The notes under the pieces were generated by a model. The model worked only from the letters and a program-made list of their open reading frames with translations. It ran no database searches and was not told the origin of the DNA. From Brachybacterium faecium DSM 4810 (GTDB lineage Bacteria > Actinomycetota > Actinomycetes > Actinomycetales > Dermabacteraceae): a stretch of 64,000 nt of DNA. Where the stretch lies: positions 1,240,001 through 1,304,000 of the forward strand of contig CP001643.1 in NCBI GenBank assembly GCA_000023405.1, in the 5' to 3' direction. Position numbers and translations under genes: made by a program. Position 1 is the first letter of the stretch. The number at the start of each line of letters is the position of its first letter. Below, piece by piece: positions 55,337 to 61,657 of the stretch.

Positions 55337-55422
55337 CGGACAGTGCGACGTCTCCCGTGCGGCGCCGTCCCAGGGCGCGCCGGAGACATCCCCCGACCAC
55401 CTTCTCCGAACAGGAACACGAG

Positions 55423-57105
55423 TTGGCAGAGTTCATCTACACCATGTACAAGGCCCGGAAGGCCGTGGGCGAAAAGGTCATCCTCGATGACGTCTCCATG
55501 AGCTTCTACCCGGGCGCGAAGATCGGCATGGTCGGCCCCAACGGTGCCGGCAAGTCGACCATCCTGAAGATCATGGCGGGCCTGGACCAGCCCTCCAACG
55601 GCGAAGCCCGCCTCAGCCCCGGCTACAGCGTCGGCATCCTGCTGCAGGAGCCGCCGCTGGACGAGTCCAAGACCGTCCTGGAGAACGTCCAGGAGGGCAT
55701 GGGCGAGCTGTTCCGCAAGGTGCAGCGATTCAACGCGATCGGCGAGGAGATGGCCGAGCCGGACGCCGACTTCGACGCGCTGATGGAGGAGATGGGCAAG
55801 CTCCAGACCGACATCGACGCGGCCAACGGCTGGGACCTCGACTCCCAGCTCGAGCAGGCGATGGACGCGCTGCGCTGCCCGCCCGGCGACGAGCCGGTCA
55901 CCCACCTCTCCGGCGGCGAGCGCCGCCGCGTGGCGCTGTGCAAGCTGCTGCTGGAGAAGCCCGACCTGCTGCTGCTGGACGAGCCCACCAACCACCTCGA
56001 CGCCGAGAGCGTGCTCTGGCTCGAGCAGCACCTGCAGCAGTACGAGGGCGCGGTCATCGCCATCACCCACGACCGGTACTTCCTGGACCACGTCGCCCAG
56101 TGGATCGCCGAGGTCGACCGCGGCCACCTCTACCCCTACGAGGGCAACTACTCCACCTACCTGGAGAAGAAGGAGGAGCGGCTGCAGGTCCAGGGCAAGA
56201 AGGACCAGAAGCTCGCCCGGCGCCTCAAGGAGGAGCTGGAGTGGGTGCGCTCCAACGCCAAGGGCCGCCAGGCGAAGTCCAAGTCCCGTCTGGCCCGCTA
56301 CGAGGAGATGACCGCGGAGGCGGAGAAGACCCGCAAGCTCGACTTCGAGGAGATCACCATCCCGCCGGGCCCGCGGCTGGGCAGCAAGGTCATCGAGGCG
56401 AAGAACCTCCAGAAGGGCTTCGGCGAGCGGGTGCTCATCGACGGGCTCTCCTTCTCGCTGCCCCCGAACGGCATCGTGGGCGTCATCGGCCCCAACGGCG
56501 TCGGCAAGACCACGCTGTTCAAGACCATCGTGGGCCTCGAGCCGCTGGACGCCGGCGATCTCGAGATCGGCCAGAGCGTGAAGATCAGCTACGTCGACCA
56601 GAACCGCGAGAACATCGACCCGAACAAGAACCTCTGGGAGGTCGTCTCCGACGGGCTGGACTTCATCCAGGTCGGCAAGGTCGAGATCCCCTCGCGCGCC
56701 TACGTCTCGCAGTTCGGCTTCAAGGGGCCGGACCAGCAGAAGAAGGCCGAGGTGCTCTCCGGCGGTGAGCGCAACCGCCTCAACCTCGCGCTCACCCTCA
56801 AGCAGGGCGGCAACGTGCTGCTGCTGGACGAGCCCACCAACGACCTCGACGTGCAGACCCTCGGGTCGCTCGAGAACGCGCTGCTGGAGTTCCCCGGCTG
56901 TGCCGTGGTCGTCTCCCACGACCGCTGGTTCCTCGACCGCGTCGCCACCCACATCCTGGCGTACGAGGGCACCGAGGAGAACCCGGCGAACTGGTACTGG
57001 TTCGAGGGCAACTTCGAGGCCTACCAGCAGAACAAGGTCGCCCGCCTGGGCGAGGAGGCCGCGCGCCCGCACCGCGTGACCTACCGCCGCCTGACCCGCG
57101 ACTGA
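55423..57105 (+). CDS. ettA: energy-dependent translational throttle protein EttA (ABC-F)
   Basis: Soluble ABC-F ATPase that binds the ribosomal E site and tunes the first steps of elongation to energy state. The 560-residue length matches EttA. Domain 1: Walker A GPNGAGKST (38-46), LSGGERRRVAL, LLLDEPTNHLD. Between the domains is the helical tRNA-contact linker (KKEERLQVQGKKDQKLARR...). Domain 2: GPNGVGKTT, LSGGERNRLNL, LLLDEPTNDLD. The start is the TTG at 55423: it gives MAEFIYTMYK, the nearly invariant EttA N terminus, and has AGGA seven bases upstream. The much longer frame reaching back into the HAD gene is an artefact. Confidence 0.96.
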   Translation: MAEFIYTMYKARKAVGEKVILDDVSMSFYPGAKIGMVGPNGAGKSTILKIMAGLDQPSNGEARLSPGYSVGILLQEPPLDESKTVLENVQEGMGELFRKVQRFNAIGEEMAEPDADFDALMEEMGKLQTDIDAANGWDLDSQLEQAMDALRCPPGDEPVTHLSGGERRRVALCKLLLEKPDLLLLDEPTNHLDAESVLWLEQHLQQYEGAVIAITHDRYFLDHVAQWIAEVDRGHLYPYEGNYSTYLEKKEERLQVQGKKDQKLARRLKEELEWVRSNAKGRQAKSKSRLARYEEMTAEAEKTRKLDFEEITIPPGPRLGSKVIEAKNLQKGFGERVLIDGLSFSLPPNGIVGVIGPNGVGKTTLFKTIVGLEPLDAGDLEIGQSVKISYVDQNRENIDPNKNLWEVVSDGLDFIQVGKVEIPSRAYVSQFGFKGPDQQKKAEVLSGGERNRLNLALTLKQGGNVLLLDEPTNDLDVQTLGSLENALLEFPGCAVVVSHDRWFLDRVATHILAYEGTEENPANWYWFEGNFEAYQQNKVARLGEEAARPHRVTYRRLTRD

Positions 57106-57134: not shown

Positions 57135-57168
57135 AAGCCCCCTGCTCACCTCGGTGAGCAGGGGGCTT
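57135..57168. terminator. bidirectional hairpin terminator
   Basis: Arms 57135-57150 and 57153-57168 are perfectly complementary (about 15 usable pairs with a CTCG loop), followed by TTGTCGTTCTC on the plus strand. It separates the convergent ettA and sigma/anti-sigma-like genes. Confidence 0.88.
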
Positions 57169-57175
57169 GTCGTTC

Positions 57176-58798
57176 TCAGCCCTCCGCGCCGACCGCGGGA
57201 TCGGCGGCCTGTGGGTCCAGGTTCGCGACCACCTTGGAGGAGGGGGAGCCGGATCCGCTGCCCGGGGCCATCTCGCGGGTGACGACGAGGCGATCCCCGG
57301 TCCGGGCCGAGACGAACTCGATCGTCCCGTCGCGGGCGAGGTCGAGCACGCCGAGGCTGCGCGGCACGCCGTCGGTCTCGCTCCACAGCTCGAGCACCTC
57401 GCCGTCCTCGCCGGTGACGCCCTCGGCGTGCAGGGCGATGCCGTCCTCGGCGAGGACCGCGTGCCAGGTGCCGTTGTCGCTGATCCCGGGGACCAGCTGC
57501 GCGCCGGGGGTCATGCTGCGCTCGGTCCAGGTGGTGGAGAAGGCCTCGGAGGCCTCGAGCTGCCGGTGCGCGTCCAGCAGCAGCGCCCCCAGCACGAGCG
57601 CGGCGATGAGCGCCAGCGCGGCGAGGAAGCGGGAGACCCAGGGCGCCCCGCGGTCTCCGGCCCGGGCCCGTCGCTGCGCGCGGCGTCGGCGGCGCGAGCG
57701 CCCCTTCTCGTCGGCCGGCCGGAACGCGAACGCGGGGCCGGCGGCGGCGTCCTGCGGGCCGGGCGGGGGAGCGGCCTCGGCATTCGGTGTGGGGGCGGAG
57801 CCCGCCGACGGCTCCGAGGCGCTGCTGTGCAGACCGCCGGCCAGCGCCGGCGGGCCGACCATCCGGCGCTGGGTCTCGGTGCCGAGCACGGGCGTGGCGT
57901 AGGTGCCGCTGTAGGCCGGCTCGGACGCCGACGGCGCGAGCCCGGACCCCGTGGACTCCCTCGCCGTGCGCTCTGCCGACGGTGCGGGGTGTGCGGAGCG
58001 GTCCGTCGGCGCCCGGCCCGCCGGGGGAGCTCCCGGGACCGTGGCACCGTCGAGCACCGCCGGGAGCAGGTCGCGCGAGGGCGGGACCGCGGTGAGCAGG
58101 GTGAGGCGGGCCGCGGCCTCGATCGCGTGGCGGTGGATGTCGGCGCATTCCGGGGCGCGGGTGAGCTCCCGCAGCCGGAGCCTCTCGCCCGCCTCGGCCA
58201 GCGCGAGCGCGTCCAGGGCGCTCAGCCCCCGCGTCTCGGGATCCCGCGGGCCGCCGAAGGGCACCAGCGCATCGAGCACCTCGGCGAGGAACACGGCGGC
58301 CCGCTCCCGGGCGGCGCCGGTGTACGCGAAACGGCCCTGGGCGGCGGATTCGGCCAGGGCGCGCTGCGGTGGCGGCAGCTCGAGCAGCACACGCAGCACC
58401 GCGACCTCGCGGCGGTCGCTGGTGCGATCGGGGACCGGCTCCGGCCCGGCCAGCGAGCGGACATCGCCGGTGGGCCGCGTGGCCACCGCGGCGCGGCGGG
58501 CGCGGTCGAGCACGGCGCCCTCGCCGGGCAGGCCGCCGGCAGCGAGATCCGCGGCGTCCCGCAGGCACGAGCGCAGCACGCTCACAGTGAGCTTCTCCGC
58601 GCGGGCGGAGGATCCGGTGACATGGACCGCCAGGCCGTGGATGCGCGGCGCGAGCACGTTCACCAGCGCGGCGGCGGCGCTGCGGTCCCCGGCCGCGGCG
58701 CGCCGCAGCAGGGTGCGCACGGGGTCCAGCCGCTCCCCGAGGTCCACCGTGTCCTCCGGGATCCTCGGCATCTGCCCGGTCCCTGCCTCGCTCCCCAT
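57176..58798 (-). CDS. sigma factor-like/anti-sigma (RskA-like) fusion protein
   Basis: A 540-residue protein in which I see four parts. Residues 25-85 (LLRRAAAGDRSAAAALVNVL...AEKLTVSVLRSCLRDA) resemble ECF sigma region 2. Residues 128-180 (REVAVLRVLLELPPPQRALAE...) resemble region 4 but lack a clear helix-turn-helix. Residues 189-250 (GLSALDALALAEAGERLRL...EAAARLTLLTAVPPSRDLLPAVL) match the N-terminal domain of SigK-type anti-sigma factors. After a Pro/Ala/Ser linker and basic stop comes one helix (388-409) and an external RskA-like domain (WHAVLAEDGIALHAEGVT...LELWSETDGVPRSLGVLDL). ATG 58798 is used; MPRIPED (58771) is an alternative. Alignment is by eye; the C-terminal RskA call is the firmest part. 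Confidence 0.75.
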   Translation of the reverse strand: MGSEAGTGQMPRIPEDTVDLGERLDPVRTLLRRAAAGDRSAAAALVNVLAPRIHGLAVHVTGSSARAEKLTVSVLRSCLRDAADLAAGGLPGEGAVLDRARRAAVATRPTGDVRSLAGPEPVPDRTSDRREVAVLRVLLELPPPQRALAESAAQGRFAYTGAARERAAVFLAEVLDALVPFGGPRDPETRGLSALDALALAEAGERLRLRELTRAPECADIHRHAIEAAARLTLLTAVPPSRDLLPAVLDGATVPGAPPAGRAPTDRSAHPAPSAERTARESTGSGLAPSASEPAYSGTYATPVLGTETQRRMVGPPALAGGLHSSASEPSAGSAPTPNAEAAPPPGPQDAAAGPAFAFRPADEKGRSRRRRRAQRRARAGDRGAPWVSRFLAALALIAALVLGALLLDAHRQLEASEAFSTTWTERSMTPGAQLVPGISDNGTWHAVLAEDGIALHAEGVTGEDGEVLELWSETDGVPRSLGVLDLARDGTIEFVSARTGDRLVVTREMAPGSGSGSPSSKVVANLDPQAADPAVGAEG

Positions 58799-59083
58799 CG
58801 GGCGCCTCCATGCATTCGCTGCTCGGCTCTCGACGCCGCCCCCCGCGGCGCCGCACCATTGTCGCAGGCGGCGACGGTCGGGGCGACGGGAGGTGTGCGG
58901 CGACGGAGAGCATGCTCTCCCACCCGGATGCAAGGTCGTGCAAGATGCGCTCTCCATCTTCTCCCCGGGCGCATCAGGCGGCGGCCTCGGGATCCATCGC
59001 CCCTGGTCGACGCGGGATGGCGTGCGCCCGGACCGAGGTGGACGCGGCGCAAGAAACACGCAAGATCCGACCGGGCGGTCGGG

Positions 59084-59095: not shown

Positions 59096-61657
59096 ATGAA
59101 GCCGCTCTCCACCATCACGGTCTCCTCCGATCTCCCGGAGGCCCTCGCGCCGCTGCGCGACCTGGCGCTGAACCTGCGCTGGACCTGGCGCCGCCAGACC
59201 GTCGACCTCTTCCGCGCCCTCGACGCGCGCGCCTTCGCCGCGAGCGGCGAGAACCCGATCGCGATGCTCCCGATGGTCTCGGCCGGCCGCCTCGCCGAAG
59301 CGGCTCACGACGAGGCCTTCCTCGCCCGGATGCGGTCCGAGATCCAGGACCTGCGCACCTACCTCGACTCCGGCCGCTGGTTCCAGCGCACCGTCCCGGG
59401 GGCGCAGGGCGGCGACGGGGCGTCGATCGCGTACTTCTCCATGGAGTTCGGGATCACGCCCACGCTGCCGATCTACTCCGGCGGCCTCGGGATCCTCGCC
59501 GGCGACCACCTGAAATCCGCCTCGGATCTCGGGGTGCCGCTGGTCGCCGTCGGCCTGCTCTACCAGTGGGGTTACTTCTCCCAGGCCCTGGACCGCTCCG
59601 GCTGGCAGCAGGAGGAGTACCGGCTCAACGACCCCGCGCAGCTGCCGGTCCGGCCCGTCCGCGCCGATGACGGCGCGCAGCTCACCGTCTCGGTCGCCCT
59701 GCCCGGCGGCCGCGAGGTCGCGATCGCGGTGTGGAGCGCGCAGGTGGGCCGGGTGCCGCTGCTCCTGCTGGACACCAACCTCCCCGTCAACGACGAGCAC
59801 GCCCGCGCGATCACCGACCGCCTCTACGGCGGCGACCACGAGCACCGCATCGTCCAGGAGATCGTGCTCGGCATCGGCGGGGTGCGCGCGGTGGAGGCGT
59901 TCAGCGCGCTGACCGGCGCTCCCGCACCGACCGTGTTCCACCTCAACGAGGGCCACGCCGGATTCTCCGGGCTCGAGCGGGTGGGCCGCCTGATGCAGGA
60001 GGGCGCCGGGTTCGCCGAGGCGGTCGCGCAGGTGCGGGCGGGCACCGTCTTCACCACCCACACCCCGGTGCCCGCCGGCATCGACCGCTTCGAGGCCGCG
60101 CAGCTGCGCCGGCACCTGGACGCGGACGAGACCGGCCTGTCGCGGCTCGTGCCCGCGCTGCCGGTCGAGGCCGCGCTGGCGCTCGGGATCGAGGAGGGCG
60201 GGGACATCTTCAACATGGCCCAGCTCGGCTTCCGCATCGCCCAGCGCTCCAACGGCGTCGCCCAGCTCCACGGCGCCGTCTCCCGGACGATGTTCCAGGA
60301 CCTGTACCCCGGCTTCGACGTCCCGGAGGTGCCGATCGGCTCGGTCACCAACGGCGTGCACCGCCGCACCTGGACCTCCGCCCCCATGGACGACCTGTTC
60401 ACCAAGGCGCTGGGGCACGTGGACATCTCCGCGCTGGGGGACTGGAGCGCCCTGGCGACCCTCACCGATCATGAGCTCACCACCACGCGCGACACCCTGC
60501 GCAGCGACCTGGTGACGATGGCGCGGCAGCACGTGAAGGAGTCCTGGCTGCGTCGCGGCGCCGACGAGGCCGAACTCGCCTGGACCGAGCACATCCTCGA
60601 CCCGCGCGCGCTGACCATCGGCTTCGCCCGCCGCGTCTCCACCTACAAGCGCCTGACGCTCATGCTCAGCGACCCCGACCGGCTCCGGAGGCTCCTGCTC
60701 GACGAGGACCGGCCGGTCCAGATCGTCGTGGCCGGCAAGTCCCACCCGGCCGACCGCCCCGGCAAGGAGTTCCTCCAGCAGCTGGTGCAGTTCGCCGACG
60801 ACCACGGCGTGCGCCACCGCATCGCCTTCCTGCCCGACTACGACATCGCCATGGCCTCGGTGCTCATCGCCGGCTCCGACGTGTGGCTGAACACTCCGAT
60901 CCGTCCCGAGGAGGCCTCGGGCACCTCCGGCATGAAGGCGGTGCTCAACGGCGGTCTCACCTTCTCCGTCTCCGACGGCTGGTGGGATGAGATGAAGGAC
61001 GACGAGGCGGGGTGGACCATCCCCACCGCGCGCATCGAGGACCAGGCCGAGCGGGACCGGGTCGAGGCCGAGGCGCTCTACGAGATCCTCGAGCAGTCGA
61101 TCATCCCCCTCTTCTACGAGCGGGACGCCCGCGGGATGCAGCGCGGCTGGATGACCAAGGTGCGCTCCTCGCTGGTCACCGTCGCGCCGCGGATCACCGC
61201 GGCCCGCATGGTGCGCGACTACGTCACCGTGCAGTACCTCCCGGCCGCCCGCTCCGCCGCCGCGTTCACCGCCGACCCGGCGCTCGCCGGCGAGTTCGTC
61301 GACTGGAAGGCCGCGGTGCAGGACGCCTGGCCGCAGGTCGCCGTGCGCGAGGTGAGCCTCGAGGGGATCGAGGGAGGTGCCGCCGCCACCGGCACCGAGG
61401 TCACCGTGGTCGCGGATGTCGAGCTGGGTGCCCTGCGCGACACGGACGTGCTCATCGAGGCGGTGCTGGGCGAGATCGACGCCGAAGATGAGATCATCGA
61501 CCCTCAGCTGATCCCGCTGCAGCGCGGGGAGGACGGCCGCTGGGCCGCTCGCTTCGCGCTCGCCGCACCCGGCGAGGTGGGCTGCACCGTGCGCGTCACG
61601 CCGCAGCACCCGGTGCTGGCCTCCCGCGCCGAGCTCGGGCTGGTCGCCACCGCCTGA
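59096..61657 (+). CDS. glgP: alpha-glucan phosphorylase (GT35, DUF3417-containing type)
   Basis: Releases glucose 1-phosphate from glycogen or maltodextrin with inorganic phosphate and PLP. The 853 residues start with the DUF3417 domain (PLRDLALNLRWTWRRQTVDLF), then the phosphorylase core: IAYFSMEFGI, YSGGLGILAGDHLKSASDLG, HLNEGHAGF, TTHTPVPAGIDRF, TNGVHRRTW, and the PLP-binding lysine Lys614 in EASGTSGMKAVLNGG. This is the alpha-glucan phosphorylase type found in actinobacteria and thermophiles, shorter at some loops than E. coli GlgP. The start is fixed by the DUF3417 N terminus and by TACCGT six bases upstream; an enormous upstream frame is rejected. The following lipoprotein gene is 35 bases away. 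Confidence 0.94.
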   Translation: MKPLSTITVSSDLPEALAPLRDLALNLRWTWRRQTVDLFRALDARAFAASGENPIAMLPMVSAGRLAEAAHDEAFLARMRSEIQDLRTYLDSGRWFQRTVPGAQGGDGASIAYFSMEFGITPTLPIYSGGLGILAGDHLKSASDLGVPLVAVGLLYQWGYFSQALDRSGWQQEEYRLNDPAQLPVRPVRADDGAQLTVSVALPGGREVAIAVWSAQVGRVPLLLLDTNLPVNDEHARAITDRLYGGDHEHRIVQEIVLGIGGVRAVEAFSALTGAPAPTVFHLNEGHAGFSGLERVGRLMQEGAGFAEAVAQVRAGTVFTTHTPVPAGIDRFEAAQLRRHLDADETGLSRLVPALPVEAALALGIEEGGDIFNMAQLGFRIAQRSNGVAQLHGAVSRTMFQDLYPGFDVPEVPIGSVTNGVHRRTWTSAPMDDLFTKALGHVDISALGDWSALATLTDHELTTTRDTLRSDLVTMARQHVKESWLRRGADEAELAWTEHILDPRALTIGFARRVSTYKRLTLMLSDPDRLRRLLLDEDRPVQIVVAGKSHPADRPGKEFLQQLVQFADDHGVRHRIAFLPDYDIAMASVLIAGSDVWLNTPIRPEEASGTSGMKAVLNGGLTFSVSDGWWDEMKDDEAGWTIPTARIEDQAERDRVEAEALYEILEQSIIPLFYERDARGMQRGWMTKVRSSLVTVAPRITAARMVRDYVTVQYLPAARSAAAFTADPALAGEFVDWKAAVQDAWPQVAVREVSLEGIEGGAAATGTEVTVVADVELGALRDTDVLIEAVLGEIDAEDEIIDPQLIPLQRGEDGRWAARFALAAPGEVGCTVRVTPQHPVLASRAELGLVATA

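Follow-up and report, generated by a model that had tools for sequence, protein, structure and literature searches.

What becomes of a sigma factor when it is joined in one chain to its own inhibitor is the question raised by a gene of Brachybacterium faecium DSM 4810, which lies in a 64,000-nucleotide window of the chromosome (contig CP001643.1, positions 1,240,001 to 1,304,000; all coordinates below are those of this window unless a locus is named). Positions 57176-58798 of the - strand hold a single open gene of 540 codons, with its ATG at 58796-58798 and its stop at 57176-57178, and the resulting protein of 540 amino acids runs from a SigK-like half through an RskA-type anti-sigma domain and one membrane helix to an RskA-like outer domain. 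Directly supported by the data presented here are the one-piece gene and its conservation, the sigma and anti-sigma ancestry of its two halves, the erosion of the polymerase and promoter surfaces of the sigma half, and a purifying selection that is strongest on sigma region 2. The explanation preferred here, tentatively and at somewhat short of an even chance, is a sigma mimic that is tethered to the membrane and fused to an anti-sigma factor; it would act as a built-in plug or decoy and affect transcription indirectly. The gene and the parts of its product are as follows.

57176..58798, - strand: gene of the one-piece pseudo-sigma/anti-sigma protein, 540 amino acids, in one open frame
58727..58798, - strand: N-terminal tail, residues 1-24, with a conserved EDTxDLG in the alignment; predicted local distance difference test (pLDDT) <50 for residues 1-23
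58481..58726, - strand: sigma region 2-like domain, residues 25-106
58253..58414, - strand: remnant of sigma region 4, residues 129-182 (part of region 4.1; helix-turn-helix lost), from alignment and position counts
58046..58237, - strand: RskA-type anti-sigma domain, residues 188-251, with three predicted helices (187-197, 203-212 and 216-236)
57644..58045, - strand: cytoplasmic linker, proline-rich, residues 252-385, from alignment
57848..57922, - strand: conserved linker motif YxGxYxTPVLGTxxQRRxVGPP, residues 293-317, from alignments
57572..57628, - strand: membrane helix, residues 391-409, basic on its N-terminal side, hydropathy peak 2.57
57254..57625, - strand: RskA_C-like part, the match starting within the membrane helix

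An earlier note on this DNA had described a SigK-type sigma part and an RskA-type anti-sigma part within one membrane protein, and profile searches, hhalign comparisons and hydropathy agree on this description. The similarity to sigma regions 2 and 4 on which that proposal hung was recovered when a profile of the N-terminal half was searched against 177,635 PDB sequences, the only significant match being SigK (4nqw, E 3.3e-5, residues 28-178) and the next sequence being SigE (E 0.16). Profile-profile comparison by hhalign gave 96.8% for residues 21-182 against 30 SigK sequences, 87% (E 3.7e-6, 58 columns) for residues 186-257 against 29 RskA N-terminal domains and 95% for the outer part against RskA_C, with all 12 reversed or column-shuffled controls below 1%. 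The domain order given in the earlier note was also reproduced by curated models, with the SigK model PRK09646 aligning to residues 27-85 (scoring 20.5 bits with the full-length protein and 23.0 bits with its first 189 residues) and the anti-sigma model NF052375 to residues 369-522 (50 bits, E 3.6e-13), although both scores fall below the curated cut-offs of 226 and 100 bits; 21 of 22 relatives matched the SigK model at E<=0.01. RskA_C (PF10099) detected the outer part in a search of the genome at 37.6 bits (E 6.1e-9), above its cut-off of 29.4 bits, and did so in 11 of the 23 fusions of the genus, 10 of them above the cut-off, while an hmmscan of the window protein against Pfam listed nothing, RskA_C included. 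A comparable hydropathy peak (>=1.88) was present in all 22 relatives scored. SigK was the best structural match of the predicted fold of sigma region 2, with PhyR present among the fold matches, and residues 21-182 are, as judged by these comparisons, a relative of SigK. In relatives, as had been proposed, sigK and rskA are two genes lying side by side, and 29 of the 30 ordinary pairs read have a 4-base start/stop overlap, so that a single small indel would fuse them.

The sigma half has lost most of the positions that a working SigK retains, as assessed at positions kept in >=90% of 31 SigK proteins. The fusions keep 7/9 of these positions in region 2.1, 3/11 in region 2.2 (core polymerase binding), 5/15 in region 2.3-2.4 (-10 element), 5/11 in region 4.1 and 3/13 in the helix-turn-helix (-35 element), two of the last three being kept in approximately one third of members. 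Among the changes, Q51 of SigK is replaced by V, F54 by L, W58 by L and W69 by A; the AHRRAVD of SigK reads ARRAAVA in the fusion, and the -35-reading helix has no counterpart. Scored with the SigK model, the window protein reaches 20.5 bits, whereas a canonical SigK from its genus reaches 245 bits. These counts bear out the degraded state that the earlier note ascribed to the sigma part; its statement that region 4 lacks a recognisable helix-turn-helix likewise stands, whereas part of region 4.1 can still be recognised by sequence.

Purifying selection has been strongest within the very half that is eroded. Mean ratios of nonsynonymous to synonymous substitution (dN/dS), derived from 210 of 231 sequence pairs with dS<1 that are not independent of one another and whose dS is rough in so GC-rich a genome, were lowest for sigma-2 (0.22), followed by the anti-sigma domain (0.29), the sigma-4 remnant (0.39), the N-terminal tail (0.41), the linkers (0.42 and 0.50, the latter being the proline-rich one), the membrane helix (0.52) and the outer domain (0.58). 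No other segment of the protein evolves as slowly or is as constrained as the sigma-2 remnant, which is a kept domain rather than debris. Within the otherwise fast-evolving linker, the motif YxGxYxTPVLGTxxQRRxVGPP is strongly conserved, and a 29-base pattern of its core has a single occurrence in the genome, at this locus. When residues 118-257, comprising the sigma-4 remnant and the anti-sigma domain, were modelled alone, they were predicted to form one six-helix unit (pLDDT 84, predicted template modelling score (pTM) 0.75; pLDDT 80.7-84.1 over five models); no sigma-4 fold was present among the structural matches listed for this model, and a chain of sigma-4 plus anti-sigma domain is unlikely to occur as one PDB chain.

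The genome of B. faecium is a complete single contig of 3.61 Mb, and a protein search of the genus Brachybacterium recovered the fusion in 23/38 genomes, in 22 of which the whole protein lies in one frame and in one of which (G027) it is broken; with this distribution the fusion is not an assembly artefact. The 24th match of the search (G005) was an ordinary SigK of 204 amino acids. Among named records with a relative, 11/12 are labelled Brachybacterium and one is an unclassified member of Actinomycetales. The earlier suggestion that the same fusion might be sought in other Dermabacteraceae holds within Brachybacterium but not for the other genera of the family, where a profile of residues 1-251 recovered it in 0/9 genomes. 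Across 396 genomes of the order, all matches >300 bits were from Brachybacterium (13) and the others were <=43 bits, and across 394 genomes of the class there were eight other matches at E<=1e-8, all <=43 bits.

The fusion gene stands alone between a convergent gene that we take to encode an ABC-F ATPase and a divergent gene that is presumably glgP, for alpha-glucan phosphorylase; with these two as its neighbours, no sigK partner gene adjoins it. The surrounding features are listed here.

55420..57105, + strand: convergent neighbour, the presumed ABC-F ATPase gene, start codon approximate
57138..57165, no strand assigned: 12-bp perfect inverted repeat between the convergent ABC-F gene and the fusion gene, read from the sequence
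58805..58809, - strand: ribosome-binding site GGAGG, from sequence and alignment
58858..58866, - strand: extended -10-like element TGCGACAAT, from an alignment of 14 upstream regions
59096..61657, + strand: divergent neighbour, the presumed glgP

The upstream alignment took in 14 of the 23 fusion loci. The extended -10-like element, approximately 60 bases upstream of the ATG, is common to all 14 relatives, reading ACAAT/ATAAT in 14/14 with a TG before it in 13/14, and GGAGG is present in 11/14, with a GGGAG- or GAGGG-like site in the other three. Both elements support the assigned start codon. A consensus promoter scan reported no promoter at 58858..58866; as read from the alignment the extended -10 is of the housekeeping type, which gives no sign of autoregulation. 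The inverted repeat is a possible shared terminator of the ABC-F and fusion genes, and a terminator scan that required a T run gave no call there.

The glgP gene adjoins the fusion in 22/23 fusion genomes, the 23rd (G020) having no glgP hit, and on a glgP tree of 33 genomes the presence or absence of the fusion corresponds to six changes, of which at least five are forced, on a tree that by itself cannot separate gain from loss. Several changes of state at one and the same locus suggest that the fusion gene is old and has been lost several times in the genus. Of the 11 glgP-bearing genomes without the fusion, 10 allowed the stretch from the ABC-F gene to glgP to be read (in the 11th the contig ends there). 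In five of them it measured 227-345 bp, in four it spanned 889-988 bp and contained unrelated open frames, and in one it reached 4.7 kb. Loss is directly supported in G025, where the empty site (L090:4536-4855) retains 30 bp from the 3' end of the fusion gene at 90% identity (E 9e-6). In G034, G012 and G010 (L097, L099 and L100) an unrelated gene, GNAT acetyltransferase-like by eye, lies between the ABC-F gene and glgP. In G022 the two are separated by a 4.7-kb stretch with several open frames (L096:1076-5773), from which the site appears open to insertions.

One-piece proteins of the same layout were also found in another family of the order, here called f6. SigK and RskA lie in one frame in genome G376 (L140:329-1906, - strand; one of seven long frames checked), and a search of 120 f6 genomes, with a frame check of 20 loci and then of 12 more (2 one-piece, 10 separate genes), revealed one-piece SigK-RskA proteins in 22 genomes from six genera (L144-L163, L174 and L175). 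In sister genera of these fusions, sigK and rskA are separate genes. The f6 fusions keep 2/11 of the SigK positions in region 2.2 and 7/15 in region 2.3-2.4, compared with 8/11 and 15/15 in the 10 separate f6 SigK proteins, and their helix-turn-helix, at 7/13, is better kept than that of the Brachybacterium fusions; with the SigK model the two that were scanned reached 59 and 70 bits, and with the anti-sigma model 82 and 74 bits. No glgP or ABC-F gene was present in the 1.5-kb flanks of 20 f6 loci. In a tree with long branches, the f6 fusions group with f6 SigK and the Brachybacterium set lies elsewhere, with a starred branch between them, and an approximately unbiased (AU) test against one origin of both sets gave p 0.062. 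The f6 set is thus probably a separate fusion event, two origins being likelier than one. Judged by sequence, the f6 proteins have followed the same course of fusion and then sigma erosion, which counts in favour of the sigma mimic proposed for Brachybacterium. Still more tentatively, there may be a recurrent class, in which overlapping sigK and rskA genes were fused in at least two actinobacterial families and the sigma half, each time no longer able to bind polymerase or promoter, was maintained as a sigma mimic in a one-piece signalling protein.

The genome of B. faecium has four Sigma70_r2 hits, all outside the fusion gene and its neighbourhood, and a PF10099 search of it found no second RskA_C. 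Over the 38 genus genomes, 13 contain both the fusion and a canonical RskA, 10 the fusion only, 9 the canonical protein only and 6 neither (Fisher p 1.0); since the two occur independently, canonical SigK is not an obligatory partner. Elsewhere in the B. faecium genome, an ECF-like (extracytoplasmic function) sigma gene (L035:1249-1809, - strand) is directly followed by a gene for a protein-kinase-like membrane protein (44-1249, - strand), which may control the adjoining sigma factor. The canonical SigK-RskA pairs of the genus are of two kinds, L025 and L046 as opposed to L036-L045 and L047, and within the part of the sequence shown, a CxxC motif is present only in RskA of the L025/L046 kind.

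A possible explanation for these observations is that a single frame arose from sigK and its rskA in an ancestor of Brachybacterium, after which the sigma half would have lost the features needed for sigma activity. That half would have been retained as a folded domain resembling sigma-2 and connected to the anti-sigma domain, the membrane helix and an outer domain acting as sensor, which would make the protein a sigma mimic tethered to the membrane. At rest, the pseudo-sigma would fill its own anti-sigma domain as a built-in plug. A signal passed on by the outer RskA-like domain, either by a change of shape or by regulated proteolysis, would free one half to bind a partner in trans, either a real ECF sigma factor by the anti-sigma half or another anti-sigma factor by the pseudo-sigma half, and transcription would be changed indirectly by a protein that is not itself a sigma factor. 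Also viable is the idea in the earlier note that the domain, its DNA binding gone, acts on some other protein; core polymerase is a less likely target for titration, since region 2.2, which binds it, ranks with the most eroded parts. Several points nevertheless weigh against the sigma mimic. According to PMC7406223, region 2.2 contacts the polymerase clamp helices and anti-sigma helix 4 occupies the same place; among the 15 sigma positions in common anti-sigma contact (Table 2 of that paper), 8 keep the majority residue and 7 are changed, including 22, 26, 51, 54 and 58, so that docking in the known way is not assured, and the substitutions leave both core binding and known-mode docking of the pseudo-sigma in doubt. 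The anti-sigma helix 4 that mainly contacts sigma-2 is short in the prediction, with pLDDT <50 from residue 238, and it is uncertain how sigma-2 packs against the rest, since the model of residues 1-257 reached a pTM of 0.58 and four of its five versions a pLDDT of 60.8-64.5. In addition, the gene, which was probably lost several times, would be dispensable, and the dN/dS means carry the limits given with them.

The protein could instead be a one-piece sigma factor that still works in the manner of IutY: its own anti-sigma part would keep it at the membrane until regulated proteolysis freed it to drive transcription, a self-inhibited sigma factor freed by proteolysis having also been considered in the earlier note. 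Its domain order is that of the known hybrids, among which IutY has its sigma domain released through cleavage by Prc and RseP (PMC5411451 and PMC8999054), and both the intact predicted fold of sigma-2 and the purifying selection on it would be expected of such a factor. However, most SigK-conserved positions for polymerase, -10 and -35 contact are gone from regions 2.2 and 2.3-2.4 and the helix-turn-helix, the sigma-4 fold was not recovered among the listed matches of the 118-257 model, and the housekeeping-type promoter gives no sign of autoregulation, which together make this proposal very improbable. It is unlikely, though less remote, that the pseudo-sigma works only in trans, titrating another anti-sigma factor as PhyR does, with the RskA parts serving as anchor and sensor and binding no sigma factor; the conservation of the anti-sigma domain (dN/dS 0.29) would be needless in a mere spacer. 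Unlikely, too, is an origin that is only history, the cytoplasmic part having become a new helical module outside transcription, for example in scaffolding or envelope signalling, given that region 2.1 is mostly kept and the sigma-2 fold is predicted to be retained; the missing PDB match of the six-helix unit says little here, as a sigma-4 and anti-sigma chain would hardly be expected as one PDB chain. That the fused pair is a decaying relic on its way out, with no function, would suit its patchy distribution (15/38 genomes without it, the forced changes on the glgP tree), the broken copy in G027 and the remnant in G025, but is scarcely credible for a gene with 22/23 copies open at full length, the strongest purifying selection on its sigma part and a clade as deep as the genus.

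Compared with known systems, both halves of the fusion derive by sequence from the actinobacterial SigK-RskA pair (ECF19; structure 4nqw), and the sigma-2 fold matches; that pair consists of two genes, two proteins and an intact sigma factor, whereas the fusion is one protein with an eroded sigma half and its own housekeeping-type promoter. The known role of RskA-type proteins goes beyond holding SigK, since RskA can both inhibit and activate it (PMC7509140). Sigma factor and membrane anti-sigma factor in one chain are described for IutY of Pseudomonas putida, freed by Prc and RseP (PMC5411451), and for ECF52 (SCO4117), ECF48, ECF53 and ECF36 (PMC8999054), and the fusion resembles all of these in combining an ECF sigma part and a membrane anti-sigma part in one polypeptide. 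As described there, IutY is released as an active sigma factor, in contrast to the fusion, whose core- and promoter-binding positions are mostly gone, and the anti-sigma parts of the hybrids are periplasmic FecR-like, zinc-finger or DUF2275, none of them RskA as in the fusion. PhyR, the sigma mimic of alphaproteobacteria, has a sigma-like domain that is no longer a sigma factor and, like the fusion, lacks the positions of a working one (PMC4598750). It differs in being soluble, with a response-regulator receiver domain and a separate target protein, NepR; the fusion has an attached anti-sigma domain, membrane helix and RskA-like outer domain, and neither the Pfam hmmscan nor the curated-model scan found a receiver domain in it. 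The f6 proteins share its domain order and the erosion of regions 2.2 and 2.3-2.4, but are less eroded. Searches confined to an open-licence library found no description of SigK-RskA fusions whose sigma half is eroded, the f6 set included. A group of this type may be included in the large ECF re-classification of 2021. Sigma/anti-sigma hybrids and the sigma mimic PhyR are already known.

If the sigma mimic is borne out, a copy of SigK kept fused to its own inhibitor after losing its ability as a sigma factor would link the hybrids to the sigma mimics and would constitute a route from transcription factor to signalling domain by gene fusion, with readable stages from separate genes, through the moderately eroded fusions of f6, to the strongly eroded fusions of Brachybacterium. 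Such proteins should be annotated neither as sigma factors nor as plain anti-sigma factors. Should the recurrent class also prove true, a two-protein transcription switch would have become, in these actinobacterial families, a one-piece signalling protein with no transcribing activity of its own.
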